Positions 17,346 to 44,313 of a stretch of DNA of 51,415 bases are shown piece after piece (position 1 is the stretch's first letter; each line of letters opens with the position of its first letter). The stretch is from Bacteroidales bacterium (GTDB lineage: Bacteria; Bacteroidota; Bacteroidia; Bacteroidales; Prolixibacteraceae), in contig JAATGF010000017.1 in assembly GCA_015654795.1 (NCBI GenBank), positions 1 through 51,415 on the forward strand, in the 5' to 3' direction. The translations under genes and the position numbers were made by a program. A model generated the notes under the pieces. That model made no database searches and was not told the DNA's origin. It saw only the letters and a list, made by a program, of their open reading frames with translations.

Positions 17346-17492
17346 ATGTATTTCCGAGGCAAAAGGGCTAAAAGATAGAAGGGGCGACCTTCATCTGTAA
17401 AATTAAGAGATTAAAAACAGATTATTAAGAGATTCATAAAATCTGAAAATACCTGCTAATCGGTTATTGGTAAACTAATTTATAATCAATGA

Positions 17493-27462: not shown

Positions 27463-27497
27463 AACAAATATTCCTTCTAAACGCATGATACTACCAC

Positions 27498-27506
27498 ACA
27501 AAGGTA
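27498..27506 (-). promoter_or_regulatory. Bacteroidota -7 box (TACCTTTGT, minus strand)
   Basis: Exact TAnnTTTGY on the minus strand, 36 bp before the ATG at 27462. It supports that start, because the longer upstream frame would place the box within coding DNA. No clear -33 TTTG. Confidence 0.5.
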
Positions 27507-27576
27507 GAGATATTTTTTTGCTTATAAAAAGTGTGGCGCAGATCGGGTTTGTCGAATCCATAAATATAATTTGCAT

Positions 27577-27958
27577 TCAGAACATCTGTTGTGCTGTTTT
27601 ACTGGAGCGATTGCCTTACCATCCTAAAATATTGTTTAAAAACTCAAAGAGCAATCAATATTCCAGGCAAAATCTTTGAAAACTAAATCAGTTTTACGAG
27701 AAATCTAAAAATATAACGCACTATAATTCAAATGTTTAATATGCTATGAAAAATTTATTAAAAAAATACCGAAAATTAGGGTAACAAATCATTATACAAA
27801 CCTATTAATAGAGAAATAAGTACTTATATTTTAGTAAACAATAATATTGATAGGTATTAATATTCAATAGTATTGTTCCCGATGTGTTATTAAACAGTGT
27901 TATATTTGTTTGGATTTTTTTTAATTAAACGTAAAACCTGATTTTAAAATGTAAAACA
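27577..27958. other. AT-rich divergent intergenic region
   Basis: No gene. It is strongly AT-rich. A TAnnTTTGY match (TATATTTGT) at 27901-27909 is the likely -7 box of the LytTR gene, 50 bp from its ATG; the nearest TTG is 25 bp upstream, wider than usual. Confidence 0.45.
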
Positions 27959-28306
27959 ATGCGAACATCCAAGATCCTAACCCTGCGAAATGAAAGCGAA
28001 TTTAAATGTATCGATTTGACAGACCTGCTTTATGTCTATGTTTATGATTATCTGTCGTCTTTTCATTCTTCGAACAACCGGAAATTCACATGTACTAAAT
28101 CACTATTGGAAGTTGTGTCTATTTTGCCTGATAATTTCTTCCGGATTAACCGAAATTGCATTGTGAACATTTATGAAATCGATACCTTTCAACTCAGGAA
28201 CCGGACGATCCATCTTTCAAATTCTGTCGAATTTATTGTTTCTTGCCGACGGATAAAGCAGCTTCAGATTGCACTCACAAGTCATAACCTAACGATCACG
28301 GGTTAA
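27959..28306 (+). CDS. Stand-alone LytTR-type DNA-binding protein
   Basis: The product is 115 residues and consists of just the LytTR beta domain: a short N-terminal strand (ILTLRNESEFKCIDLTDLLY), then TCTKSLLEVVSILPDNFFRI with NRNCIVNIYEIDTF, the recognition region, and VEFIVSCRRIKQLQIAL at the end. There is no receiver domain or membrane segment, so its signal comes from elsewhere. It is encoded upstream of the lanthipeptide block on the same strand and is a candidate local regulator of it. The dyad TCCCTG-T-CAGGGA at 28489-28501 downstream may be an operator. The link is inferred from position. Confidence 0.85.
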   Translation: MRTSKILTLRNESEFKCIDLTDLLYVYVYDYLSSFHSSNNRKFTCTKSLLEVVSILPDNFFRINRNCIVNIYEIDTFQLRNRTIHLSNSVEFIVSCRRIKQLQIALTSHNLTITG

Positions 28307-28653
28307 GCAGTTACGCTCACAAGTTATCACAGATTCAACGCTTATTTTAAATATTTTTTTCATATCATTGTGATTGTGATACTGATTACTTCAACAAAAC
28401 ACTTAGTGGATAGTAATGCAATATAATTCAGTTATAATCAGGTGTTCTTTGAGAGTTATTACATAATGGGTAGATACAGTTCAAATACTCCCTGTCAGGG
28501 ACCATTCAACGAATGTTAATGCTCATTATAGACAATAATACTTACGTTCTGCGTGTGCGGGTGTCCGGAAGGCAGTTGATAAAAGAATTGCAGAGATATA
28601 AAACGATATTAAACCATTTGAAAAGCAATCATTAACTTAAAAAACAGAAAATC
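28307..28653. other. Intergenic region with a short dyad
   Basis: No gene seen. It contains a 13-bp dyad, TCCCTG-T-CAGGGA (28489-28501), and AT-rich DNA. It presumably carries the promoter of the helical-bundle pseudogene. Confidence 0.45.
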
Positions 28654-29337
28654 ATGCAAAAACGACTTGAAAACAAATTGACAATGTTGAACGCTGTGTT
28701 ACATTTTCTGAAACAAAACAGTTCGGCGTGGGGAAGCTCCACCGTAATGGTAGAATTGATTACCAAACTGGAGACATTGATTGGCGAAATTGAATCGATT
28801 CGCCGGATTACAAATAGCAACCTTACAGGTATTACGGACGAAAAACTGGTGCAGCAGGAAGTCTTGATCAGCAAAGCCTACGAGTTTTCATCGATATTGT
28901 AAGCGATGGCTTCGCGGAGCGAAAATAAGGTATTGCAGGGGAAGGTCAATTTTACCGAAAGCGAACTTCAAAATACGCGTGGTGGCGATTTGATTTCTAC
29001 ATGTAAGTCCATCGCAATTTTAGTAAGCGAGAACCTTTCGGCATTGGTGCCTTATGAACTTACTGAAGCCGATGTAACCGTTCTCGGAGAGATGATCAGC
29101 AGCTTTGCAGAAAATCTTCCTACGCACCGCGTATCGTTAGCCGAGCGCAAAGCCGCCAATGAGCGGTTAAAAGAAGCATTCTCCACCGTTGATACATTGG
29201 TTAATGAGCATCGCGACCGCATGATGGTGTGTTGCCGAAGCACTTCGCCCGATTTGTATGCTACCTATATTAATGCCCGTGCGATTGTGCATTATGGCAT
29301 CAGGCACGAAAAGGAGGAGAAGCCGAAAAGTAATTAG
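28654..29337 (+). pseudogene. Helical-bundle protein gene split by an in-frame stop
   Basis: Two open frames, 28654-28902 (82 codons) and 28906-29337 (143 codons), are in the same reading frame and separated only by TAA (28900-28902) and GCG. Together they encode about 226 residues of continuous helix-rich sequence: QKRLENKLTMLNAVLHFLKQ at the start and SRSENKVLQGKVNFTESELQ straight after the stop. I recall intact single-chain proteins of this layout in Bacteroidota, of unknown function. Simplest reading: a nonsense mutation. Readthrough, or re-initiation at the ATG at 28906, are alternatives; no SD precedes it. Confidence 0.7.
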
Positions 29338-29339
29338 GT

Positions 29340-29390
29340 TTCTGTTGTTTGAAGGGTTTCTATTGTCTGGTACGCTCAAAAACAACAGAA
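29340..29390 (+). terminator. Hairpin before the LanC-like gene
   Basis: TTCTGTTGTTT (29340-29350) pairs exactly with AAACAACAGAA (29380-29390) around a 29-nt loop, just after the stop at 29337 and 38 bp before the next start. No T-run follows, so it could be a terminator or a leader structure. Confidence 0.4.
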
Positions 29391-29428
29391 TAGTATGATT
29401 ATAATTATTCAACTACAACTGAACCTAA

Positions 29429-30502
29429 ATGGAACACAATGCAATTGCAAATAGTGAAAGTCGATTTCAGCGCATAATCAATGTGCTACTGCTCAATGCC
29501 AGTTTTATCGACAACCTGGGCTTGATGCATGGCAAGATGGGAATTGCCATTTTCTTCTTCCATCTATCACGTGAAACTCAAAATCAGGTTTATGAAAATT
29601 ATGCAGGAGAACTAATTGATGAAATCTATGAAGAAATCACTATCACCACGCCCTTGGATTTTGAAAATGGTTTGGCGGGTATCGGTTGGGGTATTGAATA
29701 TTTAGCGCAAAATGGTTTTATCGAGGCTGATACAGATGAAGTGCTCGAAGATTTCGATAACCGTTTGCAACCATCCAGAAATCAATTTCATGGAATAGGA
29801 TTATTGAAAGGCCTTATTGGGTTGGGTGCATATTATCTGAAACGGATACAAAAGCCCGCTTCGACTGATGAAGAAGTTTCAACCCTTATAAACAAGCAAA
29901 TGCTGGTTCACCTTATTGATGAACTTGAGTTACGGGTTGAAAACGAAGGAGTAATTAATTTGGTAAATGGCAACGAAACTTTTACCCTGACATGGGATTT
30001 TCCGGTTTTGATTGCATTTATAACTGAAGTCTACCAATTAAACTTGTTAAATTTTAAAATTGAACGAGTACTCCAACAAGTTATTGCTCCACTATTTCAA
30101 TCTGAGAATATTCCAAGGCAACACAGCAAAAGATTATTGCTGGCCTTGGCAATTGAAAAGATGAAAAAATGCGAAATAATACAATATCCGGATGGTTCAA
30201 TCGATGAGTTAATTCAAAATCTCTTGACAGGTATAGATAGAGAGAACATATCTGATGATTTGATTCTTAACTCAGCATTTATGCAAAACGGCACAAGTAG
30301 TATTGCATGGATTTATAAACAATTATTTCGGTTGACTGGTGATGAGTATTATCAAACAGAAGCATTGTATTGGAGTAATCGTAGTTTTGAATTTGACGAA
30401 ACGGATCAAGGTTATGCAGGTTTTAATATGGTAAAAGAAAATGAGGACAAAGCGTTTGGTATCTTGAATGGATTAGCTGGAATAAATCTGATTCATTTAT
30501 GA
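29429..30502 (+). CDS. LanC-like protein lacking zinc ligands
   Basis: The product is 357 residues. It has the repeated helical-barrel hallmarks of LanC cyclases: LGLMHGKMGIAIFFF, ENGLAGIGWGIEYL, FHGIGLLKGLIGLGAYYL and a final GILNGLAGINLIHL. Where LanC enzymes carry the zinc ligands (WCYG and CHG), it reads LTWDFPV (Asp190 in place of Cys) and FMQNGTSSIAWIY (Gln286-Asn287 in place of Cys-His). It therefore cannot bind the catalytic zinc in the known way. Its stop overlaps the start of the next gene by ATGA, implying coupled translation with a glycosyltransferase. It may bind or present the peptide, or be a decaying cyclase. Confidence 0.8.
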   Translation: MEHNAIANSESRFQRIINVLLLNASFIDNLGLMHGKMGIAIFFFHLSRETQNQVYENYAGELIDEIYEEITITTPLDFENGLAGIGWGIEYLAQNGFIEADTDEVLEDFDNRLQPSRNQFHGIGLLKGLIGLGAYYLKRIQKPASTDEEVSTLINKQMLVHLIDELELRVENEGVINLVNGNETFTLTWDFPVLIAFITEVYQLNLLNFKIERVLQQVIAPLFQSENIPRQHSKRLLLALAIEKMKKCEIIQYPDGSIDELIQNLLTGIDRENISDDLILNSAFMQNGTSSIAWIYKQLFRLTGDEYYQTEALYWSNRSFEFDETDQGYAGFNMVKENEDKAFGILNGLAGINLIHL

Positions 30503-31683
30503 AAACAATAAACTGGATCATCCTAAGGAGCAAAGATCGCGGAACTGATTATGGTGTCGGTACTTTTATTAAGCAAATTACTGAAGGTCTTTCGCAACAA
30601 ATGAATATTGAAGTTTTTGTTGTAGAGATTGGCACCGATTCTTTATCAGAATTTACTGTTGAAATGAAATCAGGAGTAACATATTTCAAGTTTCCGCAAT
30701 TCAATCATCCGAAGAATCCGAATACCAAAACAAATCTCTCAAGGTTTGCCAAAAGTTTGGTACGTGTCGTAATCCCTCTTTTACCAAAGACGCGAAAAAC
30801 TGTTGTTCATCTGAACTTTGTATACCAATGCTTTATAGGTGAGGAATTTAAGAAAGCAATTGATTGCTATTTAATTTTCACACAACATTTATTTATTCAA
30901 CAACCATCAGGAATCCAAATTTTATTGGATACCGAAAGCCTGACCTACTCGTTAGTTGATCGAATTATTACCGTGACTAAACATGGTAAAGAACACCTGA
31001 TAAATAAGTTGGTCGATGAAAGGAAAATTATTCCTATTTACAATGGAATTGATCCTTATTTGTTTGGGAAAAAGGACACTGAAATAAATATCAGACGGAA
31101 ATATGGAATAGGTATTGATGAAAAAATAGTTCTGTATAGTGGTAGAATTGAACACATTAAAGGATTAAAATACCTTTCGCGTGCATTCTCTCTTTTATTG
31201 AATAAATTACCTGATTGTCGTCTCGTTATAGCCGGGAACGGAGATTATGAGGAGTTAATTCGGGAATCCAAAGCGTTTTCATCAAACATCAATTATCTGG
31301 GTTTTATTCCATTTGCAGATTTGGTCACGCTATATAAGGAAGCATCAATCGGTGTTATTCCTTCTTTAGAAGAACATTGCAGTTATGTCGCCCTCGAAAT
31401 GCTTTATAGCGGGTTACCAGTTGTAGCGACTTGTCTTGGTGGATTGAAGGAGATTTTTATTCACAATGAAAATGCTTTTTTGGTTGATACGGTATCTGAT
31501 CAGACAAATGCTTTTGGTATTGCTCCGGATATTGATCAGTTGGCAGATTGTATGTATAACTTATTGACTGACGATCAATTACGAAAGAAATTTTCGCAAA
31601 ATGCAGTCATCAGGGCTAATAAGGAATTTACGATGAATATAATGGCAGACAAATATGTAACAACCATAAGAAATTTAAATTAA
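30499..31683 (+). CDS. Glycosyltransferase, GT4 (GT-B fold)
   Basis: The product is 394 residues, cytoplasmic. The N-terminal half has SKDRGTDYGVGTFIKQI (acceptor-side Rossmann start). The C-terminal donor domain shows VLYSGRIEHIKGLKYLSRAF, LVIAGNGDYEELI, YLGFIPFADLVTLYKEASIG and the EX7E-type region PSLEEHCSYVALEMLYSGLP followed by VVATCLGGLKE. It is translationally coupled to the zinc-less LanC-like gene. Glycosyltransferases are known companions of GG-leader peptide systems in Bacteroidota. It could glycosylate the lanthipeptide; no substrate evidence is in the sequence. Confidence 0.9.
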   Translation: MKTINWIILRSKDRGTDYGVGTFIKQITEGLSQQMNIEVFVVEIGTDSLSEFTVEMKSGVTYFKFPQFNHPKNPNTKTNLSRFAKSLVRVVIPLLPKTRKTVVHLNFVYQCFIGEEFKKAIDCYLIFTQHLFIQQPSGIQILLDTESLTYSLVDRIITVTKHGKEHLINKLVDERKIIPIYNGIDPYLFGKKDTEINIRRKYGIGIDEKIVLYSGRIEHIKGLKYLSRAFSLLLNKLPDCRLVIAGNGDYEELIRESKAFSSNINYLGFIPFADLVTLYKEASIGVIPSLEEHCSYVALEMLYSGLPVVATCLGGLKEIFIHNENAFLVDTVSDQTNAFGIAPDIDQLADCMYNLLTDDQLRKKFSQNAVIRANKEFTMNIMADKYVTTIRNLN

Positions 31684-31906
31684 ATGGGAAAAACTACTTA
31701 TGCGCTACATAATAATATGATTAATAATGTAAATTAATAGAAATAGATTCCTAGCATAAACATTAAAGAAATTAGGGATAGAAATTAAGCCCGAAATACC
31801 AGCTTGGCTGATTTGATGAAAAAGCGTCGATCGTCATCGGGAAGATTATTCCGTTCCCAGGATCAGAAAACAGAAAAGTTACTTTATAGACAGACACTAA
31901 ATTAAA

Positions 31907-33631
31907 ATGAAAATATTCATCTTTTTTATCCTGATTATTTGTGCAGGCTGCATGGGAACATCTTCCGATAAATTCAAGGAAGGGACAGCATTTTCGGACA
32001 AAGAATTCGATTCGGGATCCAAAATTAATTTTCCGGCGATTAGGGAAAAGACAATTAAAGATTTGGAATTGTTAGGAAAGATATGGGGATTTTTAAAATA
32101 TCATCATCCGGTAATTGCCAAAGGAAATTACAACTGGGATTATGAACTCTTCCGTATTCTTCCTACATATTTAACAAATAGCTGCAAAGCTGAAAGAGAC
32201 AAAATTCTCTTAAAGTGGATAGATAAATTAGGCTCTATTCACATCTGTAAAGATTGTAAGGAAACTGCATCCAATGCCGTTCTAAAGCCTGATTATTCAT
32301 GGATAAACAATAATTTAGACGACCGGTTAAAAGAAAAGCTGCTTTATATTTATCATAACAGATATCAGGGAGGTCAATTTTATATCCGGCAATTTCAAGA
32401 GGTCGGGAATCCTGAATTTCTCAATGAAAATTCTTATCCGAATATGCCTTATCCAGACGCAGGATTCAGATTACTGGCGCTTTACAGGTATTGGAATATG
32501 ATTCACTATTTTTACCCATACAAACACTTAATGGATAAGCAGTGGAGCGGCACATTAAAAGAATATATACCGTTGTTTATTAATGCAAAAAATGAATTGG
32601 AATATGAATTGGCGGCAGTAAAAATATTCGGTGAGATACAGGACTCTCATGCAAATCTTTGGGGAGGTAATGACAAAATGATTCAATTGAAAGGAACGTT
32701 TTACCCCCCTGTGCATGTACGCTTTATTGAAGATAAGTTGGTTGTGGATGAGTATTATAATGATGAATTGAAAAAGGAAGCAGGTCTCCGGATAGGAGAT
32801 ATTATCACCCATATAAATGGGAAAACGATTGAAGAATTCGTTAAGGATTTGAAGAGCTATTATCCTGCATCAAATGAAGCTGCCAAAATGAGGGATATAT
32901 CTCAGGATATTCTAAGATCGAACGTAAATAGTATTCATATTAAATATATTTCAGAAGACAAGAACCTAGAGAAAGAATTAAAACTATATAATGAAAATAA
33001 ATTAAATCTTTACAGTCATTATAGAAATGATATAAGGAAAAGTTTTAAGCTTTTAGATGATAATATTGGTTATATAACATTAATGAACATTAGGAAAGAT
33101 GATATTGAACCAATTAAAGCGACATTTAAAAATACGAAAGGAATCATTATTGACATTCGTAATTATCCGAATACATTCGTTCCTTTCTTGCTGGGTTCAT
33201 ATTTTGTTTCCTCTTCCTTAACCCCTTTTGTAAAATTTACAACAGGGAATACAGATAATCCCGGAGAATTCACATTTACAGAAACACTGACTATCCCAAA
33301 AGCCAAAGATACGTACAAGGGTAAGCTTATTGTAATTGTCAATGAACTCACCCAAAGCCAGGCTGAATATACAGCGATGGCTTTCCGGGCTGGGGTCAAT
33401 ACTACTATAATTGGGAGCACTACAGCAGGAGCAGATGGAAATGTCTCAACCATTTTGCTGCCGGGAGGATTAAGAACAATGATTTCAGGAATTGGTGTAT
33501 ACTATCCAAATGGAAAAGAAACACAAAGAGTTGGCATTGTACCTGATATTATAGTTAAACCAACTATTGAAGGTATCAAAAAAGGGAAAGATGAACTTAT
33601 TGAAAAAGCAATAGAATTAATCAAAGGTTAA
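31907..33631 (+). CDS. S41-family peptidase lipoprotein
   Basis: The product is 574 residues. A lipoprotein signal ends at Cys15 (LIICAGC), so it is tethered in the periplasm or on the outer membrane. An N-terminal helical region contains MIHYFYPYKHLM; a PDZ-like segment, AGLRIGDIITHINGKTIEEF, lies near residues 288-310; the S41 fold follows with VNELTQSQAEY (Ser484) and IIGSTTAGADG. The GEIQDSHANL segment has the likely catalytic His248, as in the Ser-His tricorn/IRBP-like branch rather than the Ser-Lys CtpA type. Such peptidases recur near lanthipeptide genes in Bacteroidota; processing of leader or product is a possible role. Confidence 0.88.
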   Translation: MKIFIFFILIICAGCMGTSSDKFKEGTAFSDKEFDSGSKINFPAIREKTIKDLELLGKIWGFLKYHHPVIAKGNYNWDYELFRILPTYLTNSCKAERDKILLKWIDKLGSIHICKDCKETASNAVLKPDYSWINNNLDDRLKEKLLYIYHNRYQGGQFYIRQFQEVGNPEFLNENSYPNMPYPDAGFRLLALYRYWNMIHYFYPYKHLMDKQWSGTLKEYIPLFINAKNELEYELAAVKIFGEIQDSHANLWGGNDKMIQLKGTFYPPVHVRFIEDKLVVDEYYNDELKKEAGLRIGDIITHINGKTIEEFVKDLKSYYPASNEAAKMRDISQDILRSNVNSIHIKYISEDKNLEKELKLYNENKLNLYSHYRNDIRKSFKLLDDNIGYITLMNIRKDDIEPIKATFKNTKGIIIDIRNYPNTFVPFLLGSYFVSSSLTPFVKFTTGNTDNPGEFTFTETLTIPKAKDTYKGKLIVIVNELTQSQAEYTAMAFRAGVNTTIIGSTTAGADGNVSTILLPGGLRTMISGIGVYYPNGKETQRVGIVPDIIVKPTIEGIKKGKDELIEKAIELIKG

Positions 33632-34000
33632 TAGGGAAATTTATTCGAGAATGTTATGGAGACGGCGCATACCCAGTCAACACATCGCGAAGATGTGAAG
33701 AGTATTATATGTTAAAAACCTTGAGAAAATGAGCTTTCTATATTTTTAATCAGATAATGAAAAAGAAGAAATGTTTCAAGATTCTTTTCGAGGAATGAAA
33801 GGCAAGATGATTAAGATAAATTGGGGAAAGTTTTAAATCAGGAAAGTGCTTAGAATTTTTTAACGGATACCAGCCAGATTAATCACATTTAAAACAATAA
33901 ATGCAGTTAATGAAAATAGATGAATAGATTTAAAAAGGGAAAGATAATTTTATAGGAGGAAGTCGAAAATCCTATTTAGACTACAATTAAATTAATTATT
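33632..34000. other. Leader region upstream of the precursor genes
   Basis: No gene seen. It is AT-rich and ends with the conserved AGGAGGAAGTCGAAAATCCT element at 33954-33973 and a 27-nt spacer before ATG 34001. The precursor promoter presumably lies here; no clear consensus. Confidence 0.5.
33954..33974 (+). promoter_or_regulatory. Conserved precursor leader element, copy 1
   Basis: AGGAGGAAGTCGAAAATCCT plus A. The same 21 bases occur at 34262-34282 upstream of the second precursor. AGGA and TCCT at its ends can pair. It lies 27 nt before ATG 34001, too far for a simple Shine-Dalgarno, so a structured or protein-bound leader is likely. Confidence 0.6.
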
Positions 34001-34035
34001 ATGAAAATATTAAAAAATTAGTACTGAACAAAAGT

Positions 34036-34257
34036 GTGATTTCGAATTTGAACAAGTCAGAGATGGGTCAATTGAAAGGCGGCACCGGATTATCCGACGA
34101 CTGCTTCACCTTATCCTGTTTAGGAACCTGTGTTGGTGCAACCTGTTTTAATTGCCCCACTCCAACTGAAGAATGTGGTCAGGTCGAAACATGCGTCTAC
34201 GGAACTTGCGATGCTGCACATTATGTGCCGTGCCTTAGTGAGTTGTGGTGCCAATAA
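34036..34257 (+). CDS. Lanthipeptide precursor 1 (Cys-rich core, out of frame with its ATG)
   Basis: From GTG 34036 the frame gives 73 residues. The leader part (ISNLNKSEMGQLKGG) matches precursor 2; GG codons lie at 34078-34083. The core has 57 residues with 10 Cys and 11 Ser/Thr (FTLSCLGTCVGATCFNCP; VETCVYGTC; VPCLSELWCQ). Upstream, the frame continues back as KKLVLNKSV, but the only ATG (34001) is one base out of register: ATGAAAATATTAAAAAATTAG closes after six codons. Precursor 2 has one extra A at this point. A one-base deletion in an A-rich tract, a sequencing error, a non-ATG start, or slippage could each explain this. Class I lanthipeptide type by context. Confidence 0.7.
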   Translation: MISNLNKSEMGQLKGGTGLSDDCFTLSCLGTCVGATCFNCPTPTEECGQVETCVYGTCDAAHYVPCLSELWCQ

Positions 34258-34261
34258 AAAA

Positions 34262-34282
34262 AGGAGGAAGTCGAAAATCCTA
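34262..34282 (+). promoter_or_regulatory. Conserved precursor leader element, copy 2
   Basis: Identical 21-base copy of the element at 33954-33974, 31 nt before the ATG of precursor 2 and directly after the precursor 1 stop. It shows that the duplication unit includes the leader. Confidence 0.6.
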
Positions 34283-34313
34283 ATAAGAGTAGACAATATT
34301 TAAAATAATTGTT

Positions 34314-34526
34314 ATGAAAAAGATTAAAAAATTAGTATTGAACAAAAGTGTGATTTCGAACTTGAACCAGCCAGAAATGGGTCAATTAATGGGGGGGTAT
34401 GGGAATTCTGGTACTTTCTGTACCCTCGGTTGTGCTGGTGACACTTTTTACCATTGTCCTGGTCCTTATCCTCTGAATACACATGAAATTCCATGTGCGA
34501 GTGGCTATGGGTGCGCAACTTGGTAG
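34314..34526 (+). CDS. Lanthipeptide precursor 2, GG leader
   Basis: The product is 70 residues. The leader is 28 residues (MKKIKKLVLNKSVISNLNQP, then EMGQLMGG) and ends in the GG at which C39 peptidases cut; it resembles the GG-leader natural product precursors of Bacteroidota. The core, 42 residues, has 5 Cys and 7 Ser/Thr (FCTLGCAG, HCPGPYP, EIPCASGYGCATW). It aligns with the core of precursor 1 (FTLSCLG / FCTLGCAG; CFNCP / FYHCP; VPCLSELWC / IPCASGYGC), so the two are paralogues. Seven consecutive G encode the GG site. LanB, LanC and LanT are encoded immediately downstream. Confidence 0.88.
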   Translation: MKKIKKLVLNKSVISNLNQPEMGQLMGGYGNSGTFCTLGCAGDTFYHCPGPYPLNTHEIPCASGYGCATW

Positions 34527-34553
34527 TCCTTGCTAACTTTTAATATTCAGTTT

Positions 34554-34589
34554 AGAAATAAATGTCTTATGATAAAGGCATTTATTTCT
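34554..34589 (+). terminator. Hairpin between precursors and lanC
   Basis: AGAAATAAATG (34554-34564) pairs with CATTTATTTCT (34579-34589), and the inner bases extend the stem with wobbles to a small loop. It lies 28 bp after precursor 2 and 124 bp before lanC. It could act as a partial terminator, keeping precursor mRNA above enzyme mRNA, a layout common in RiPP operons. Confidence 0.65.
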
Positions 34590-34713
34590 TATGTGTTGAA
34601 TTGTCTGCACATCGATACTACAACCCGTTTTCAATTATGTTTCATTTTAAAAATATAAAATATATATCCGGATTTAATAAACTTGATTTGTGTAATAATT
34701 ATAAATAATAGCA

Positions 34714-35943: not shown

Positions 35944-35962
35944 AATCGAAGCTGTTAAAAAA

Positions 35963-38212
35963 ATGAATAATCCTTACATTGCATTCGATCGGTTTGTTAT
36001 TCGAACTCCTTTGTTTTCATTCGATGTATTTATAAAATATCTTTACGAACTTTCGGAATCAAATGATAATTTCAAGAGTCTGCTAACCAATAAAATAATT
36101 CAGGAGGCAGTCTATATTGCAACGCCTGAGCTGTTTAATGAACTATTAAAGTATTTAGAAAAAGGGTTGCCGGTTATAAAAGACGAAGAACGATTCAAAT
36201 ATTCAATTACCCGCTACTTAAGTCGCATGTCAACTCGTTGTACCCCCTTTGGCATTTTTGCCGGATGCTCAACAGGTCAGATAGATGATCGAACCTTTAT
36301 TTCTCTCAGCCAAATACAAAACTATAAACGGCATACACGTTTGGATATGAATTATTTGTGTGCACTGGCACAAGACATTGCCAAGTCAACGGAAGTAAAG
36401 CGCCATATCAAATATTTCTGTAATACCAGTATTTATCAGATAGGAGATAAGATCCGCTATGTTGAGTATTTTTATAAAGTAGTGACGCGTGTCCATTGTA
36501 TTGCTGCTGTTGATTATTCTGAATACCTTAATAAGGTGCTTCAAAAAGCATCGCAGGGAAGTAAATTTAACGAGTTGGTCAATTTAATAGTGGATGAAGA
36601 AATTAGTATTGATGAAGCTTCTGAGTTTATTGATGAACTTATTAGTGCCCAATTATTAGTAAGCGATTTAGAACCTGCAGTTACTGGTCCGGAATTTCTT
36701 AATCAGGCACTACATAAGCTTCAAAATATTTTGAAGGATTCTTGCGAAAACGAATATATATCCAACATCCATTATCAATTACAACAGATTAATGGATTAT
36801 TGGATGATATTGATAAACAACCAATAGGTGACACAATCAATATTTATGATGAAATTATTCAAAAAATTCAAAAATTAGAAACCAGGTTTGAACCTAAATA
36901 CCTTTTTCAAACCGATATGGTCAAGCCTGTTGAAACTGCTGTTTTGAACCGGAAAATTGTAAATGATATTCTTGATGTAATTGAATTTCTTAACAAGATT
37001 ACTTTTCTTTCAGGAGAAACAACTTTGTCAAAATTCAGGAAAGCTTTTCGTGAACGATATGAGGATCGGGAAATGCCGTTGTTGCAGGTTCTTGACAATG
37101 AGTTTGGCATTGGATATAACCAAAGCGAGGGTGTCGGTGATATCAACCCTTTTATTGATGATTTAATATCTCCACAACAAAGTGGCAATATTCATAATAT
37201 ATTATGGGACAAGATCCAATCCATATTAATGGAGAAATTCATAGAGGCAAAAAGTAAAGGAAATTACACAATTGAATTATCCGATAAAGATTTTGGACAG
37301 TTTAAGGTTCGGTGGGACGATTTACCGCTGACCATATCAGTGCTGTGCAGAATATTAGAGGATAACCAAAACAATAGGGAAATATTTCTTAAATCAGCTG
37401 GAGGTTCAAGTGCTGCAAATCTGATCGGACGTTTCTGCCATGCCGATAAACAACTTGAAGATCATGTATTAAATATTACCAGAAAAGAGGAAGAGCTTAA
37501 TCCGGAGGTAATATTTGCAGAAATTGTGCACCTTCCCGAATCGCGTATCGGGAATATCTTATTAAGGCCCGTATTGCGTCCATACGAAATTCCATATCTT
37601 GCCCAATCAGCAGTTGAAATAGAATTTCAGATTGAATTATCCGACTTAGTGATTTCTATACGAAATGGCAAGATCCTGCTTCGTTCAAAAAGGTTAAATA
37701 AAGAAATAATTCCCCGGTTAAGTTCTGCCCATAATTATAGTTTTAAATCCATGCCAGTGTATCATTTCTTATGCGACATGCAAATGCAGGATCAACGTGG
37801 AGGCGTCGGGTTTAATTGGGGCTCAATAGCTAATGAGCAGAACTGGTTGCCGAGAGTAAAATATAAGAATGTCATTTTATCTCCTGCCCGGTGGATCATA
37901 AAATGTGACGAAATTAAGTCTTTAATGGAAATCCATAATAATATTGACTTAGTTGAAGCTGTAAGAATATGGAGGCAAAAATTAAGAATGCCAGAATATG
38001 TAGTATTGGATGACGGAGATAATGAGCTATTTGTAGATATGGGAAATTCATTAAGCATCAGAACATTATTCTCCTTAACTAAAAAAAGGAGTAACTTCAA
38101 ACTTGAAGAATTTCTTTATAAACCGGATAAAGCAATAGTAAAAGGGGGGGAGGGTGCATTCACAAATGAAATATTATTATCTTTTTACAAGAAAAATAAT
38201 CAAAATACTTAG
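35963..38212 (+). CDS. lanB: Lantibiotic dehydratase, N-terminal (glutamylation) protein of split LanB
   Basis: The product is 749 residues, matching the lant_dehydr_N domain that transfers glutamate from glutamyl-tRNA to Ser/Thr of the precursor. Landmarks: FVIRTPLFSFDVFIKYLYEL at the N-terminus, RYLSRMSTRCTPFGIFAG near 84-100, RHTRLDMNYLCALAQ and the C-terminal VHLPESRIGNILLRPVLRPY with YVVLDDGDNELFVDMGNSLS. In single-chain LanB (about 1000 residues) an elimination domain would follow; here it is a separate gene starting 11 bp later. A split dehydratase is known for Bacteroidota lanthipeptides and for thiopeptides. AT-rich relative to the transporter gene downstream. Confidence 0.92.
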   Translation: MNNPYIAFDRFVIRTPLFSFDVFIKYLYELSESNDNFKSLLTNKIIQEAVYIATPELFNELLKYLEKGLPVIKDEERFKYSITRYLSRMSTRCTPFGIFAGCSTGQIDDRTFISLSQIQNYKRHTRLDMNYLCALAQDIAKSTEVKRHIKYFCNTSIYQIGDKIRYVEYFYKVVTRVHCIAAVDYSEYLNKVLQKASQGSKFNELVNLIVDEEISIDEASEFIDELISAQLLVSDLEPAVTGPEFLNQALHKLQNILKDSCENEYISNIHYQLQQINGLLDDIDKQPIGDTINIYDEIIQKIQKLETRFEPKYLFQTDMVKPVETAVLNRKIVNDILDVIEFLNKITFLSGETTLSKFRKAFRERYEDREMPLLQVLDNEFGIGYNQSEGVGDINPFIDDLISPQQSGNIHNILWDKIQSILMEKFIEAKSKGNYTIELSDKDFGQFKVRWDDLPLTISVLCRILEDNQNNREIFLKSAGGSSAANLIGRFCHADKQLEDHVLNITRKEEELNPEVIFAEIVHLPESRIGNILLRPVLRPYEIPYLAQSAVEIEFQIELSDLVISIRNGKILLRSKRLNKEIIPRLSSAHNYSFKSMPVYHFLCDMQMQDQRGGVGFNWGSIANEQNWLPRVKYKNVILSPARWIIKCDEIKSLMEIHNNIDLVEAVRIWRQKLRMPEYVVLDDGDNELFVDMGNSLSIRTLFSLTKKRSNFKLEEFLYKPDKAIVKGGEGAFTNEILLSFYKKNNQNT

Positions 38213-38223
38213 TAATTACTAAA

Positions 38224-39129
38224 ATGATTTCAGATACAAAAAGAACATTTATACCAGGAGACAATTGGCTGTATTTCAAGTTATATACCGGATTTAAAAC
38301 AGCAGATTACATTTTAACAACAGTATTGCCAGATATTATATCACAATTAAGAACCAAACAAATTTTAGAAAAGTGGTTTTATTTGCGTTATTCTGATCCT
38401 AACAATCATTTACGAATACGGTTTTATATAGGAGATATTCAAAATATTTCACTTGCGATATTAATATTTAATCAAGCAATCGAAACTTATGTTTCAAACG
38501 GTTTAATTTGGAAAGTTCAAATAGAAACATACAATAGGGAACTGGAGCGATATGGTATGAATACAATTGTACCAACTGAAACATTGTTCTATCATGATAG
38601 CGAAGCCATAATCCAGATTTTAAGAGTAATAGAAGATAATAGTAAGGATCAGCAAAGATGGATGATAGCTTTCGGAATGATTGATAGGTTATACGATGAT
38701 TTTCGACTTGATACAGATAAAAAATTGGAGATGGCAAGTTCGCAAAGTAAGGGTTATAAAGCAGAGTTCGGATTTATACAAAAATCATCTAAACTGCAGC
38801 TAGATAGCAAATATAGAGATAATCGAAGAGCTGTTGAAAATATCTTAGGCAAATCAACTGATAAAGCGACATGGATACTATCAGCTATAGAAATTATTAA
38901 TGAAAAATCGAATAGATTAACTCCGATTGTCAATGAAATCCTTGAAAAAGAATTCCAACAAACGTTAGAAGTTCCTTTGGAAAAAATATTGAGTAGTTAT
39001 ATTCACATGATGATCAATCGCTTATTCAGATCAAAACAACGACTATATGAAATGGTGATTTATGATATGTTAGAAAGATATTATATTTCGGCAAAAGCTA
39101 AACTTAAATACAATAAAGTTACGCACTAA
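38224..39129 (+). CDS. Thiopeptide-type bacteriocin biosynthesis protein (LanB elimination domain)
   Basis: The product is 301 residues, matching the SpaB C-terminal / lant_dehydr_C domain that removes glutamate to leave dehydro residues. Landmarks: GDNWLYFKLYTGFKTADYIL, EKWFYLRYSDPNNHLRIRFY, YNRELERYGMNTIVPTETLF with the FYHDSEAI following, and SSYIHMMINRLFRSKQRLYE near the end. It pairs with the upstream glutamylation protein to form a functional LanB. No signal or membrane segments; cytoplasmic. Confidence 0.92.
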   Translation: MISDTKRTFIPGDNWLYFKLYTGFKTADYILTTVLPDIISQLRTKQILEKWFYLRYSDPNNHLRIRFYIGDIQNISLAILIFNQAIETYVSNGLIWKVQIETYNRELERYGMNTIVPTETLFYHDSEAIIQILRVIEDNSKDQQRWMIAFGMIDRLYDDFRLDTDKKLEMASSQSKGYKAEFGFIQKSSKLQLDSKYRDNRRAVENILGKSTDKATWILSAIEIINEKSNRLTPIVNEILEKEFQQTLEVPLEKILSSYIHMMINRLFRSKQRLYEMVIYDMLERYYISAKAKLKYNKVTH

Positions 39130-39161
39130 CAGTATTAAATGAACTTTTGCAATTTACTAAT

Positions 39162-41411
39162 ATGTATATGAAATTTCCTTATTACAAACAACTCGATGCC
39201 ATGGACTGCGGCCCTACGTGCCTTCGTATGGTAGCTAAATACTATGGAAAAACATATTCGTTGCAATATCTTCGTAGCTGTTCATCCGTTACACGTGAAG
39301 GGGTTTCCATGCTGGGCATAAGTGATGCTGCCGAGAGTATTGGTTTTCGTACAAAAGGTTATCGTCTTACATGGGAGCAACTTCGCGATGAAGTACCTTT
39401 CCCTTGCATTGTCCATTGGAATCAGCAACATTTTGTAGTGGTTTATGATATTAAAAAGGGAAAATATTCTTCTTTATTTCGTTCCCTATTTCACGGTGGA
39501 GTGGAAAATGACGAGGCTACTATTTTTATTGCCGACCCAGCCATCGGATTATTAACTTACACCAAAGAGGAGTTTCTGAAATGCTGGATTAGTACTAAAA
39601 AAGAAGGGGACAAAGAGGGTACGACCCTTTTGTTTGAACCAACTCCCGATTTCTACAACCGGGAAGATGAGCAAAAAGGGAAACTGAAATTCTTGTATCT
39701 GTTGGGATATTTGCGCCCCTACCAGAAGTTTTTGATACAATTAGGATTGGGAATGCTTACTGGAAGTATCATCAGTTTGATTTTTCCGTTTTTGACTCAG
39801 TCGATTGTTGATTATGGAATTGGCAACAGTGATCTTGCGTTTGTGGGCATGATACTTTTTGCCCAAATGTTACTCACCCTAGGGCAAACGGCCAACGGAA
39901 TGATACGAAGTTGGATTATGCTCCATATTACTTCGCGAGTGAGCATTTCGCTGATCTCCGATTTTCTGATCAAGCTGATGAAACTGCCTATCGCTTTTTT
40001 CGATGCTAAGATGATCGGCGACATTATGCAGCGCATTGGTGACCATAGCCGTATACAGTCATTTTTGACTCAGTCTTTGATTGATATTGTCTTTGCTGTG
40101 ATTACATTGGTGATTTACACCTTTATTATGGCTTCGTACAACATCGGTATTTTAGGCGTCTTTTTTCTGGGAAGTACCTTATATATCGGTTGGGTCTTAC
40201 TATTTATGAAGAAACGCCGGGAGCTGGACTACAAGCGGTTTCAGCAGTCTGCTGCCAATCAAAGTAATGTAGTACAGCTAATTTCAGGCATGCAGGAAAT
40301 TAAGCTCAATGGTTGCGAGAAGCAAAAACGCTGGGAATGGGAACGTATTCAGGCGAGCTTATATAAAGTCAATGTTAAAGGGTTGATGTTGAGTCAAAAC
40401 CAACAGATCGGAGCCACATTTATCAACCAGGCCAAAGATATTTTCATCTCTTTTCTATCGGCCAAGGCGGTAATAACCGGGGATATGACCCTAGGTATGA
40501 TGATGGCTGTACAATACATCATTGGTCAGTTAAATGCACCAATAAATCAATTTATTGGATTCATTCAGTCGGCACAGGATGCCAAAATAAGCCTGGAGCG
40601 TTTGGGCGAAATACACGACAAAGACAACGAAGGAAATTTTGAAGTAAATAAGATAAAAGAAATACCTGCAAACAAAACTATTGAAATTAAAAACCTGACG
40701 TTTCATTACGAGGGACCACATTCACCAAAAGTTTTAAAAAAGATAAACCTTGATATACCAGCCAATAAGATTACAGCCATTGTGGGTACAAGTGGCAGCG
40801 GAAAAACTACACTTGTAAAATTGCTATTGGGCTTCTACAAACTCAACAAGGGAGAAATCAGACTGGGTGATATAAATTTAGACAGTTATAGCCCGGGCCA
40901 GTGGCGTAAACGGTGTGGGGTTGTAATGCAGGAGGGGTATATTTTCTCCGATTCGATCGCAAATAATATTGGGATTATTGATGAAATACCTGATCCTGAA
41001 AAGATAGGCAGGGCAGTTTCGACAGCCAATATAAAAGAATTTGTTGATACTTTACCATTAGGTTACGAAACAAAAATAGGAAATGATGGGCACGGACTAA
41101 GCACAGGGCAAAAACAACGGATTCTGATAGCAAGGGCTGTGTATAAAGATCCAGATTATTTGTTTTTCGATGAGGCAACGAATGCATTGGATGCAAAAAA
41201 TGAACGGATGATTATGGATAACCTGGATCAGTTTTTCAAAGGTCGAACAGTAGTTGTAGTCGCACACCGTCTGAGTACAGTTAAGAAAGCGTATCAGATA
41301 GTGGTGCTGGAGCAGGGTGAGATTGTGGAGAAAGGCACTCATCAGGAGTTAGTAGATAAAAAAGGGGTATATTACCATTTGGTGAAGGACCAACTGGAAC
41401 TTGGAAATTAA
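39162..41411 (+). CDS. lanT: Peptidase-containing ABC exporter (C39, LanT-type)
   Basis: The product is about 749 residues; ATG 39162 or 39168 is preferred to a TTG at 39147. The N-terminal C39 peptidase has YYKQLDAMDCGPTCLRMVAK (catalytic Cys16), CIVHWNQQHFVVVYD (His) and FIADPAIGLL (Asp). Six membrane helices lie at about 190-450. The ABC domain has Walker A AIVGTSGSGKTTLVKLL, the signature HGLSTGQKQRILIARAV and Walker B DYLFFDEATNALD. It should cleave after the GG of both precursors and export the core. It is followed by an HlyD adaptor starting 7 bp later. Confidence 0.95.
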   Translation: MYMKFPYYKQLDAMDCGPTCLRMVAKYYGKTYSLQYLRSCSSVTREGVSMLGISDAAESIGFRTKGYRLTWEQLRDEVPFPCIVHWNQQHFVVVYDIKKGKYSSLFRSLFHGGVENDEATIFIADPAIGLLTYTKEEFLKCWISTKKEGDKEGTTLLFEPTPDFYNREDEQKGKLKFLYLLGYLRPYQKFLIQLGLGMLTGSIISLIFPFLTQSIVDYGIGNSDLAFVGMILFAQMLLTLGQTANGMIRSWIMLHITSRVSISLISDFLIKLMKLPIAFFDAKMIGDIMQRIGDHSRIQSFLTQSLIDIVFAVITLVIYTFIMASYNIGILGVFFLGSTLYIGWVLLFMKKRRELDYKRFQQSAANQSNVVQLISGMQEIKLNGCEKQKRWEWERIQASLYKVNVKGLMLSQNQQIGATFINQAKDIFISFLSAKAVITGDMTLGMMMAVQYIIGQLNAPINQFIGFIQSAQDAKISLERLGEIHDKDNEGNFEVNKIKEIPANKTIEIKNLTFHYEGPHSPKVLKKINLDIPANKITAIVGTSGSGKTTLVKLLLGFYKLNKGEIRLGDINLDSYSPGQWRKRCGVVMQEGYIFSDSIANNIGIIDEIPDPEKIGRAVSTANIKEFVDTLPLGYETKIGNDGHGLSTGQKQRILIARAVYKDPDYLFFDEATNALDAKNERMIMDNLDQFFKGRTVVVVAHRLSTVKKAYQIVVLEQGEIVEKGTHQELVDKKGVYYHLVKDQLELGN

Positions 41412-41418
41412 ATTAGCT

Positions 41419-42717
41419 ATGCATGAAATAAATAAAACAGAAGTACACAGCGACGAAATACAAGAACTCATGGGATTTATCCCCAATGGAGTAGTTAGGT
41501 GGGGACTAGCGGTTCTATTCATAATCCTAATGGGCATCATCGTTGGAAGTTTTTTCTTTAGATCTCCCGAGATCATTATCGCGCCTATGGTATTGACTAC
41601 CAAAAACCCACCGGTAGCACTATTAAGTAAATCCACCGGAAAGATAGATCGTTTGTTCGTTCATGATGGACAGCAGCTTGATGCAGGTACGGTGGTGGCT
41701 TTGATCAACAATCCCACTAATTACCAGGATTACACATTGCTTAAGAAAGGAATTGCTTTGTGTTCAGGAGTTATAACATGGGACGAACAAGTGCTTGAAA
41801 TTGAATTACCTGAACAGCTTACACTGGGAGAATTGCAATCGGGTTACTCCTCATTTCTGAAAAACCGGAATAACTTCAGACATTACCTGAATCAAAATTT
41901 AATCCCGCAGAAGATTGAACTATTGAAGGACCAAATAGCGAAACAGAAAGAGTATTACCAAACACAGTTAAGACAAAGGGATATACAGAACAAAGATCTA
42001 ATCTTGTCGGAAAAATCATTCTTCCGTGATTCTCTTTTATTCAAAAAGAAGGCAATAAGTGAAAGTGATTATGAAAAAGGACGGCAAACCTTGCTGATAA
42101 AAAATTCTGCTTCTGTTGGTTTCGATGCTTCACTTAGAAATACTGAGTCATCAATTCTACAAATACAGGGAAGTAGTTTGGAATTACAAATGCAATATGA
42201 AAAGGAATTGGCCCAATTCCGGCTCGATCTTGATGAATCAAAACAAAACCTTGAAAATCTGGTGAATCAATGGGAGCAAAGGTATTTGGTAATTTGTCCT
42301 GTTAATGGGAAAATTACATATACTACAATTTGGAGCGAAAATCAGGAAGTAAAAACAGGAGAGCTGATTGGAACGGTCATTCCACTTGGCGAGTTGACCA
42401 TTATAGCAAAAGCGATTATCCCAACAACTGGATTTGGTAAAGTGGCGATCGGACAAAAAGTAAATATCAAATTAGCTGGCTTTCCATATATGGAATTCGG
42501 GATGTTGAAAGGTCGAATTCGTTCTATTTCTTTGGTTCCAGATGCAAAAGGTTATATAGCTGAAATCGAACTGGCAAAAGGAATGACTTCTTCCTACAAG
42601 GAAAATTTGAAATTCATTCAGCAAATGGATGGTACAGCCGAAATCGTGACCAAAGATTTACGATTGATCTACCGATTTATTAATCCACTCAGGGCCTTGT
42701 TAGATAATGGACTATAG
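41419..42717 (+). CDS. HlyD-family membrane fusion protein
   Basis: The product is about 432 residues from the ATG at 41419; an upstream TTG at 41401 would overlap lanT. One membrane helix lies near 30-50 (WGLAVLFIILMGIIVGSFFF). A lipoyl-like half (SKSTGKIDRLFVHDGQQLDA), a coiled-coil hairpin (KIELLKDQIAKQKEYYQTQL; LAQFRLDLDESKQNLENLVN) and the second lipoyl half (CPVNGKITYTTIWSENQEVK) follow. It links the LanT exporter to the outer membrane. It is the last firmly assigned export gene. Confidence 0.93.
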   Translation: MHEINKTEVHSDEIQELMGFIPNGVVRWGLAVLFIILMGIIVGSFFFRSPEIIIAPMVLTTKNPPVALLSKSTGKIDRLFVHDGQQLDAGTVVALINNPTNYQDYTLLKKGIALCSGVITWDEQVLEIELPEQLTLGELQSGYSSFLKNRNNFRHYLNQNLIPQKIELLKDQIAKQKEYYQTQLRQRDIQNKDLILSEKSFFRDSLLFKKKAISESDYEKGRQTLLIKNSASVGFDASLRNTESSILQIQGSSLELQMQYEKELAQFRLDLDESKQNLENLVNQWEQRYLVICPVNGKITYTTIWSENQEVKTGELIGTVIPLGELTIIAKAIIPTTGFGKVAIGQKVNIKLAGFPYMEFGMLKGRIRSISLVPDAKGYIAEIELAKGMTSSYKENLKFIQQMDGTAEIVTKDLRLIYRFINPLRALLDNGL

Positions 42718-42748
42718 ATAATACTTTATTTACTTTTAAAGAAGATAA

Positions 42749-42886
42749 ATGAATCCAAAGAACACCAAAATACAAACTTTTCGTCCTATAAACTGGTATG
42801 AATTTGCTTTATCCATATTCAATATCACTTTTCGGTCTTTATTCTGTTTAACAAAAAGTTTCGCAGACTTATGGCGTATAATTTAA
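42749..42886 (+). CDS. Possible 45-residue small protein
   Basis: ATG 42749 to TAA 42884-42886 encodes MNPKNTKIQTFRPINWYEFA then LSIFNITFRSLFCLTKSFADLWRII. It has an aromatic, hydrophobic middle that could touch a membrane and no leader or Cys-rich core, so it is not another lanthipeptide. AAGAAG lies just upstream. It sits between the HlyD gene and the second glycosyltransferase. It may be an immunity peptide or noise; no function is claimed. Confidence 0.35.
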   Translation: MNPKNTKIQTFRPINWYEFALSIFNITFRSLFCLTKSFADLWRII

Positions 42887-42910
42887 TCTGATAATTAAGA
42901 CTCTAATTAA

Positions 42911-43966
42911 ATGAAAACTAATTTATTAAAAAGAATACAACACAAATACAATATTTTCAAAACACGTTTTATCTGTCAAAGAATAGACAAAAACCATATT
43001 CCGAAAAATAAAAAAGAAATAAGGTTATTTGTAATTGCCAGAAATGAATCGTTGAGGTTGCCTTTCTTTTTAAAATACTATTTTGAAAAAGGAGTTGATC
43101 GCATTTTTTTAATTGACAATAATTCAACGGATAATACCAGAGAAGTAGCGCTTTCATTTCAAAATGTTCATGTTTTTAAAATAAATGAAAGCTTTAAAAA
43201 ATTTTGGTATTGGATAGAATTTTTTTTAAATAAATATGGGAAAAACAGGTGGTGCTTAGTTGTTGACATCGATGAATTGTTTTCATATCCTTATGCTGAA
43301 ATAGCACCACTTGAAGTACTGATTGAGTATCTTGAATTTAATCAATACGACGCAATTCGTTCATTCTTACTCGATATTTATTCAGATAAATCAATCATTA
43401 ATACAGGATATAAGGTGAATGATAATCCATTAGAATGTTGTCCTTATTTTGATCCTACTTTTAATTCCGGACAAATACAATTACTTGACAAAAAAAAATG
43501 GAAGCAGTTTGATACCACAATATACTTTGGAGGAATGAGAGAGCGTGTATTTAATAAAATTACAGGAAGTTCATGGAATTATCATTTATCTAAAATTTCA
43601 TTGTTTAAATATACCACAACTATTTACCTAACAGAGGGTATGCATGCTATAAATGGGGCGAATTTGGCAGATATTACAGGTGTAGTCTTTCACACAAAAC
43701 ATTTTCAGGATTTTATTGAAAGAGTAATGTTAGAATCTAAAAGAGAAGTGCATTATGGAAATGCTCTCGAATATAAAATATATAACCAAGCGTGTTCAAT
43801 TGAAAAAGATATTACACTATATTATGAAAAATCAGTTAAATATCAAAATTCCAAACAATTGGTCAAGTTGGGGCTGATGAAAAGTTCAATAAATTACAAT
43901 AATTTTCTGGCACAGCAAGATTTAAATTTCAGCAATCATTCAGGAAAAAACATACTTTATGAATAA
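42911..43966 (+). CDS. Glycosyltransferase family 2-like (GT-A fold)
   Basis: The product is 351 residues with a basic N-terminus. IRLFVIARNESLRLPFFLKY and DRIFLIDNNSTDNTREVALS form the nucleotide-binding start; WCLVVDIDELFSYPYAE carries the DXD-like metal site (DID). This fits the Glyco_tranf_2_4 group. The C-terminal part (TEGMHAINGANLADITGVVF, HTKHFQDFIERVML) is typical of that group. It is very AT-rich like the LanB genes and follows the HlyD gene on the same strand, so it may belong to the lanthipeptide block as a second sugar transferase. Acceptor unknown. Confidence 0.85.
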   Translation: MKTNLLKRIQHKYNIFKTRFICQRIDKNHIPKNKKEIRLFVIARNESLRLPFFLKYYFEKGVDRIFLIDNNSTDNTREVALSFQNVHVFKINESFKKFWYWIEFFLNKYGKNRWCLVVDIDELFSYPYAEIAPLEVLIEYLEFNQYDAIRSFLLDIYSDKSIINTGYKVNDNPLECCPYFDPTFNSGQIQLLDKKKWKQFDTTIYFGGMRERVFNKITGSSWNYHLSKISLFKYTTTIYLTEGMHAINGANLADITGVVFHTKHFQDFIERVMLESKREVHYGNALEYKIYNQACSIEKDITLYYEKSVKYQNSKQLVKLGLMKSSINYNNFLAQQDLNFSNHSGKNILYE

Positions 43967-44313
43967 CAACTCACCAAAATGAATGTAAATATCAATTGTA
44001 GAAATAATTTTATCGATTGTATTACGGATTTTTGAGTCGGATGTGATTATGTTGATGAATAGTTATCAGGGCAAAATATCGTATAATTCAAGTGGAAATT
44101 TTAGGTATATATTGTGCAGTTATTCATCTTTAAACCGCTCTTAGTTCCGACACACCTTTGAAGCCACAAAAAAGCGGCGTCTTATCTTTTCTGTATTTTA
44201 ATTTGGTTTCCTTATTCCAGTTTTGGTACTTGTTTTCTATGTTCCGGTTTCGCTCATATAAACAATCTAAACAATCCGGGCGCAGCATACGTTTTATTCC
44301 AAAATGATTATAA
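43967..44313. other. Intergenic region, end of the lanthipeptide block
   Basis: No gene, repeat or RNA I can support. Composition changes from AT-rich to balanced across it. The pdxH promoter must lie here, but no consensus pair is clear. Confidence 0.5.

Follow-up and report, generated by a model that had tools for sequence, protein, structure and literature searches.

What would a lanthipeptide pathway that already holds a zinc-dependent cyclase do with a second LanC-like protein, one without the zinc site and whose gene overlaps that of a glycosyltransferase? The question is raised by a 51,415-nucleotide stretch of DNA from a Bacteroidales bacterium of the Prolixibacteraceae (GenBank assembly GCA_015654795.1, contig JAATGF010000017.1). 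This stretch, hereafter the window, is one whole contig (G000:C53) of a draft, probably metagenome-derived genome that comprises 180 contigs and is 69% complete. A single plus-strand run in the window comprises a LytTR regulator, a broken gene, the zinc-less LanC-like protein (LanC2), a GT4 glycosyltransferase, an S41 peptidase, two precursor frames (A1 and A2), a zinc LanC (LanC1), a split LanB, a C39-ABC exporter, an HlyD adaptor and a GT2 glycosyltransferase. From the comparisons below, we consider it somewhat probable that this run belongs to an acquired island for the production and export of a class I lanthipeptide that probably carries a sugar. A sequence-only reading of the window had already described a run with regulator, split LanB, zinc LanC, C39 exporter and HlyD, each of which is confirmed by its motifs or domains. 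The extra genes that it listed (S41 peptidase, two glycosyltransferases, a second LanC-like protein) are each confirmed by a Pfam domain match. As for the last of these, its presence was correctly seen, but the loss of its zinc site and its membership in a glycosyltransferase-linked family were missed.

A class I pathway of the Bacteroidota type

The LanB dehydratase is encoded as two proteins. The glutamylation protein (35963-38212, plus strand) matches PF04738 (Lant_dehydr_N) with 513 bits and has as a PDB relative, at 180.5 bits, the chain 9g04, which we take to be MadB. It carries RLDM at residue 126 and RMSTRCTPFG at residue 88, an instance of the R-x3-R-x-TPFG motif that has a catalytic role in LanB glutamylation domains. 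The elimination protein (38224-39129, plus strand) matches PF14028 (Lant_dehydr_C) with 224 bits and is related to 9g04 and NisB, to both of which it could be aligned. It carries the motifs LRYSDPNNHLRIR at 54, ELERYG at 106 and IHMMINR at 260, and with them the Arg and His residues that have roles in such domains. Just upstream, LanC1 (34714-35943, plus strand; PF05147, 145.6 bits) has a zinc site formed by Cys267, Cys317 and His318, which do not vary across the 10 sequences aligned. Its top NCBIfam match is to TIGR03897, a class II LanM model (74.4 bits, under the cut-off), which fits a remark on Bacteroidetes LanCs in PMC7268733. Export would be ensured by a C39-peptidase ABC protein (39147-41411, plus strand; PF03412, 114.5 bits, together with ABC domains) with the motifs DCGPTC, QHFVV, Walker A and LSTGQ, and by an HlyD periplasmic adaptor (41401-42717, plus strand), which scores above cut-off for PF13437 (30.1 bits) and under it for TIGR01843 (91.2 against 208.65 bits). 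The order LanC, LanB-N, LanB-C, C39-ABC, HlyD recurs in four loci fetched from other genomes (L063, L064, L067 and L073). Another arrangement is seen in L062 (564-15326, genome G129), where four zinc LanC genes and several precursors accompany a single LanB frame, whose 1067 aa could accommodate both LanB domains.

The precursor that the pathway would act on is A2 (34314-34526, plus strand), a peptide of 70 aa with a 42-aa core of 5 Cys and 7 Ser/Thr, above the NCBIfam cut-offs of both TIGR04149 (35.2 against 25 bits) and NF038153 (31.1 against 22 bits). The second candidate, A1 (34036-34257, plus strand), has a 57-aa core with 10 Cys and 11 Ser/Thr and has its leader and 5' region in common with A2. 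Relative to A2, however, it shows a one-base gap directly after its ATG, so that no ATG is in frame and the in-frame start is the GTG at 34036. Read from this GTG, the leader is without its LxLxK part and scores 15.5 bits instead of 31.9, short of the 22-bit cut-off; a class I leader with a Ser/Thr/Cys core is found in A2 by NF038153, and in A1 only in the frame without ATG. A1 may no longer be functional, or the gap may come from the assembly, a draft in many contigs in which a single-base error is possible. As for a programmed frameshift that might rescue A1, its run of A is also present in A2, where no shift is needed. Of the two Gly-Gly-leader precursors initially proposed, A2 is thus complete and A1 is not, for want of an in-frame ATG. 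A 30-nt block, 90% alike in its two copies and starting with AGGAGGAAGTCGAAAATCCT, precedes each precursor frame (33954-33983 and 34262-34291) and is perhaps a shared regulatory or RNA element. Larger precursor sets occur elsewhere: ten class I-type precursors in tandem in L070 (4491-7435) and six in L071 (6022-7594), with nearly identical leaders, different cores and, adjoining, one LanC and one LanB pair.

With both LanB domains, a LanC of the Cys/Cys-His zinc type and A2 in place, these assignments support a Bacteroidota-type class I lanthipeptide pathway whose main enzymes are present with intact motifs. The proposal of such a cluster in a Bacteroidota genome thus holds, down to the split LanB, the LxLxK...GG leader, the zinc LanC, the C39 exporter and HlyD. 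Class I clusters of Bacteroidetes are described as having LxLxKx5L leaders with a Gly-Gly site and C39 proteases and, in a number of cases, a split LanB (Walker et al., 2020; PMC7268733). Leader motif, Gly-Gly site, C39 exporter and split LanB are common to these clusters and the window, and because its features agree with this published survey the locus, taken alone as a class I cluster, is an ordinary addition to a known type. It differs in the extra LanC2, GT4, GT2 and S41 genes and in the A1 and A2 cores, which have no credible match in the fetched loci (best E 0.75); the A2 precursor has none in a plasmid collection either. Pinensins were the only lanthipeptides isolated from the phylum at the date of one published paper, and class I lanthipeptides of Pedobacter (PedA15) have been structurally analysed, as cited in PMC12328550.

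An acquired island

The cluster lies in a 16.7-kb block (27577-44313, not assigned to a strand) whose outer limits are set by two conserved flanking genes. Equivalents of these genes (26569-27576, minus strand, and 44314-44949, plus strand) are adjacent and divergent, 166-170 nt apart, in all four genomes of the same genus (L123-L126), which are all such genomes within our 60-genome family-level sample, and none of the block's genes stands between them there. The main segments of the block have a GC content of 0.28-0.36, against 0.40-0.41 in the flanks and 0.449 in the broken gene (28654-29337). By these comparisons the block is a horizontally acquired island, because the flanks adjoin without it in four of four congeners and because it is AT-richer than they are; it likely arrived in one piece. 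Direct or inverted repeats gave no convincing island ends, and the exact junctions remain only bracketed by the flanking genes. Nor did the motif TANNTTTG, presumably the Bacteroidota -7 element, provide promoter evidence, with 58 matches against 62.65 expected.

In genome contigs, the closest relatives of a flanking synthase gene come from metagenome-assembled genomes of Mariniphaga sp. (86-89% identity) and of a Bacteroidia bacterium (88%); NCBI places Mariniphaga in the Prolixibacteraceae, order Marinilabiliales. A scan of the same contigs with LanB returned zero relatives. Among 393 genomes of the order (own genome included), 27 were LanB-positive, own included, the top relative being 50% identical, and within that sample none of the four same-family genomes was positive.

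A second LanC that keeps the fold without the zinc

LanC2 (29429-30502, plus strand; 357 aa) matches PF05147 with 58.9 bits. Its AlphaFold model (predicted local distance difference score 82.3, predicted template modelling score 0.84) retrieves MadC in a Foldseek search with an E of 1e-5 and a template modelling score of 0.66 by query, and the top 16 matches are all LanC, LanCL or LanC domains, counting Arabidopsis GCR2, which we take to be LanC-like. Aligned as profiles, LanC2 and the zinc LanCs match significantly (E 1.2e-33), but the columns that hold D133, H197, C267, C317 and H318 in LanC1 (the aspartate, the acid His and the zinc ligands) are not conserved, and conservation within the LanC2 family falls mainly in the N-terminal part. 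CHG or WCxG is found in none of 19 LanC2-type matches, as against CHG in 18 of 19 LanC1-type ones, the exception being a 102-aa fragment. By model and alignment, LanC2 is thus a protein that retains the LanC fold and has lost the zinc ligands and catalytic residues. It is not a class III LanKC, in which a zinc-less LanC domain is fused to kinase and lyase domains, given its 357 aa and the fact that its matches to LanKC and LanM models are confined to their LanC parts.

A survey of 1,136 Bacteroidales genomes (PMC10352776) reports LanC never together with LanB, LanB being absent; its Bacteroidales are the NCBI order and may not cover the lineage of the window. According to the same survey, LanB-free LanC-like genes are the second commonest modification enzymes in Bacteroidales areas encoding RiPPs (ribosomally synthesized and post-translationally modified peptides). 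The three LanCs inspected there lack the zinc triad, were likened to endoglucanases, and several lie near carbohydrate-active enzymes. That likeness differs from what we find for LanC2, whose fold search ranks LanC chains above glycosidases. A glucanase role for LanC2 is unsupported, glycosidases coming only after the 16 LanC-type matches with E of 0.077 or more. The radical SAM and LanC clusters of that survey (biosynthetic gene clusters BGC3-5) do share with the window a LanC without the zinc triad and Gly-Gly-leader peptides, and BGC3, with a named glycosyltransferase, resembles it further. As described there, however, they differ from the window, which has LanB and a zinc LanC and no radical SAM or pseudo-radical SAM protein among its scanned cluster genes.

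Zinc-less LanC2 proteins accompany glycosyltransferases

The gene following LanC2 encodes a GT4 glycosyltransferase (30499-31683, plus strand; PF00534, 108.3 bits) and shares its first 4 nt with the end of LanC2, so that the window combines a zinc-less LanC fold with an adjacent glycosyltransferase. Most relatives of LanC2 show this combination. A glycosyltransferase is fused to, or lies within 5 kb of, 23 of the 26 LanC genes without CHG found in 15 genomes (window included). Zinc in this count means only that the frame holds the string CHG, LanC-labelled frames below 130 aa were dropped, and several of the fetched stretches stop less than 5 kb from the gene of interest. The three genes without one are L080 16868, L159 and a 144-aa fragment in L164, and by genome the linkage is seen in 14 of 15, the sole exception being G359 (L164). 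For zinc LanC genes the figure is 2 of 23, namely the window and L073, both of which also hold a LanC2. The difference has a Fisher p of 1.1e-8, a value that is too small because several genes share a genome.

Two further comparisons agree with this count. Among 119 Pfam-scanned neighbours of 23 of the 26 zinc-less LanCs, we found 12 with PF00535 (GT2), 10 with PF00534 (GT4) and 4 with PF02709, where a single protein may count under more than one family. For 20 of the 23 zinc LanCs, with 55 neighbours scanned, no glycosyltransferase family was seen in the first 25 of 58 families, and one in the remaining 33 would have at most one member. Neighbours below 150 aa were dropped from both sets, as were any with a LanC, LanB or C39 label, and the sets leave out the genes of the window, L072 and L073 (zinc-less) or the window, L073 and L062 10785-11990 (zinc). 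As a hold-out, six named plasmid records that match LanC2 were read, and five have a glycosyltransferase within 5 kb, by record annotation in L169-L172 and by phmmer label in L173; in the sixth, L174, none was seen and the record ends 1.9 kb downstream. In L173 and L174 the LanC2 frame is open over about 138 aa only, and the zinc site cannot be judged there. On the plasmid L170 of Parabacteroides distasonis, a TIGR04149 RiPP, a radical SAM maturase and TIGR04150 come before LanC2 and its TIGR04157 glycosyltransferase, these two in the order seen in the window; TIGR04149, TIGR04150 and TIGR04157 are parts that go with the Bacteroidales radical SAM and LanC clusters.

The two are also joined in single proteins. 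L072 and L083 each encode a GT2-LanC2 fusion, on both of which the Pfam LANC_like match is weak, and against a LanC2 profile built without them their C-terminal parts score 110.5 and 39.8 bits. A LanC2-radical SAM fusion occurs as well (L162 4819-6585 / L058 1474-3240, genome G337). Beside other LanC2 genes stand proteins of 155-204 aa with leader-like N-termini (L086 5077-5544, L091 3516-4130, L090 8846-9382 and 10477-11040), with a Gly-Gly in L086 and L091 and none in the L090 pair; they are perhaps LanC2 substrates. A class-wide search found, at the level of the profile, LanC2 matches in 19 of 395 genomes (own included), and a restriction of LanC2 to one order is unsupported, one plasmid match being in Chitinophagales.

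LanC2 next to LanB: partner, passenger or cyclase?

Zinc-less LanC occurs in 15 and LanB in 27 of the 393 genomes, and both in four (1.03 expected). Clusters that join LanB, a zinc-less LanC and a glycosyltransferase were found in three families: the window, L072 of G133 and L073 of G093. The main rival to a glycosylated product is that the lanthipeptide part works by itself and that LanC2, GT4 and GT2 ride along as passengers or are left over from another RiPP or glycan cluster that merged into the island, the product being sugar-free. We regard this as rather unlikely, yet it has arguments. LanB lies within 5 kb of just 2 of the 26 zinc-less LanC genes (in the window it is just over 5 kb away), the scanned cluster genes of the window include no radical SAM partner, and LanC2 and LanB units may gather in the same places because many of both carry C39 or HlyD exporter genes. 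It fits less well with the occurrence of the three-part linkage in three families, or with the linkage of LanB and zinc-less LanC in two of the three other genomes that hold both, which by chance placement would have a probability of about 6e-5. In a LanC2 tree, used solely to ask this, the three LanB-linked LanC2s do not group (many forks are weakly supported, 9 of 25 inner branches being well supported); since they do not, the pairing probably arose more than once.

The L072 cluster (5529-17642) consists of a GT2-LanC2 fusion, a GT4, an ADH_N-type dehydrogenase, a LanB pair, C39-ABC, HlyD and a small precursor (8536-8718). The fusion is the sole LANC_like match of the one-contig genome G133 at E 0.001 (19 bits, under the cut-off), and it stands beside LanB and the precursor, which carries an LxLxK-like leader. 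Such a case would suit another explanation, in which LanC2 closes part of the rings as a cyclase without zinc, much as the LanKC cyclase domains of class III do without zinc-binding residues (PMC7268733). Two Hymenobacter plasmids (L175 11928-13178 and L177 11458-12648) encode LanC-like proteins without CHG and WCxG beside a full-length LanB, and we have weighted this explanation upward because of them. It nonetheless remains improbable to us: cyclisation by zinc LanCs involves protonation of the enolate by a conserved His (His219 in LanCL1; PMC9934072), and LanC2 has no conserved equivalent of this residue or of the zinc ligands, LanC2 units mostly lack a LanB nearby, and the window already holds a zinc LanC. 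The three LanB-bearing Hymenobacter and Spirosoma plasmids read as controls have no glycosyltransferase nearby. By the sequences of the two Hymenobacter proteins, there is at least one other type of zinc-less LanC, paired with LanB and without a glycosyltransferase. Zinc loss alone is unsupported as a marker of glycosyltransferase linkage because the Hymenobacter LanCs are zinc-less with none in the stretch read.

What weighs against a glycosylated product

The product may be glycosylated, and several results weigh against that reading. The glycosyltransferase queries of the linkage count came partly from the same loci, for which the Pfam neighbours and the plasmid hold-out are the checks. LanC2-glycosyltransferase units being mostly without LanB, LanC2 may serve another peptide. 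When the own genome is set aside, LanB and zinc-less LanC co-occur in 3 of the 392 others against 0.93 expected, with p 0.058. The zinc-less LanCs of L175 and L177 fail the LanC2 profile, and no glycosyltransferase lies in the stretch read. GT4 has TIGR04157 as its top NCBIfam match at 259.5 bits against a cut-off of 400, and the window falls outside the TIGR04157/radical SAM RiPP clusters, its glycosyltransferase being below cut-off and its scanned proteins including no radical SAM maturase or pseudo-radical SAM protein (LanB reaches 12.4 bits against one radical SAM model, a chance-level match). For the island, absence from congeners does not prove arrival in a single piece, and a degree of decay is suggested by the lost start of A1 and by the broken gene 28654-29337.

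Taken to its end, the last point would mean an island that decays and has no product, A1 lacking an in-frame ATG and the gene at 28654-29337 holding an in-frame stop. This seems quite improbable: the biosynthesis and export frames are uninterrupted and keep their motifs, A2 is intact, and a single-base error is possible in such a draft. Our favoured reading remains an island whose class I lanthipeptide is produced, exported and probably glycosylated. To our knowledge, few glycosylated lanthipeptides have been described. Cacaoidin, of class V, is reportedly one of them, and we know of no zinc-less stand-alone LanC partner for it or for NAI-112. With these two the window would have in common a lanthipeptide and a glycosyltransferase, and it differs from them in dehydratases and phylum. 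NAI-112 is a glycosylated class III lanthipeptide with the glycosyltransferase AplG (PMC12328550). A literature search returned no glycosylated lanthipeptide from Bacteroidota by title, few papers having been examined beyond their titles.

A proposed mechanism

The LytTR regulator would control the island, and the leader of A2, with that of A1 if translated, would recruit the split LanB. As in the established pathway, the glutamylation protein would activate Ser/Thr with glutamate, the elimination protein would form dehydroalanine and dehydrobutyrine, and zinc LanC1 would add Cys thiols to yield (methyl)lanthionine rings. LanC2 would bind the leader or the ringed core and pass this substrate to the overlapping GT4, and possibly to GT2, for sugar attachment, an adaptor role that we infer from its position, the family-wide linkage to glycosyltransferases and the gene fusions. 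The C39 exporter would then cleave after Gly-Gly, as established for such exporters, and export through HlyD would end at an outer-membrane channel encoded elsewhere.

More tentatively, and as a possibility that we would not yet press, the widespread zinc-less LanC2 family of Bacteroidota might consist not of cyclases but of adaptors that present RiPP substrates to glycosyltransferases (sometimes to radical SAM enzymes) and that several LanB clusters recruited independently. If true, several LanB clusters, that of the window included, would make glycosylated class I lanthipeptides. The tie to glycosyltransferases and the fusions would give the LanB-free LanC-like proteins a testable job, and loci with a known substrate class, such as the window, are the simplest place to examine it.

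Other genes of the island

The regulator (27959-28306, plus strand) is a LytTR DNA-binding protein without receiver domain (PF04397 over residues 16-105 of its 115, at 53.5 bits). Pfam and NCBIfam searches with the cluster proteins revealed no gene dedicated to immunity. The broken gene (28654-29337, plus strand) consists of two in-frame halves separated by a TAA at 28900-28902, is not a precursor, and presumably resembles a functionally uncharacterised protein that is common in Bacteroidota. Its 3' half has matches in 13 of the 60 family genomes, own included; the four strongest others are open frames of 232-281 aa with no stop inside the match, and three weaker ones each have one TAG inside it. 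The open reading frame 28906-29337 is accordingly ruled out as a third Gly-Gly precursor, since it is the 3' half of this gene, which in its closest relatives is a single long frame. Downstream of HlyD, the GT2-type glycosyltransferase (42911-43966, plus strand) matches PF13704 with 66.7 bits. The S41-family peptidase (31907-33631, plus strand; PF03572, 58.7 bits) has a putative lipoprotein signal, its lipobox judged by eye, and a close relative (569 bits) in L064, where it stands between the leaders and LanC.

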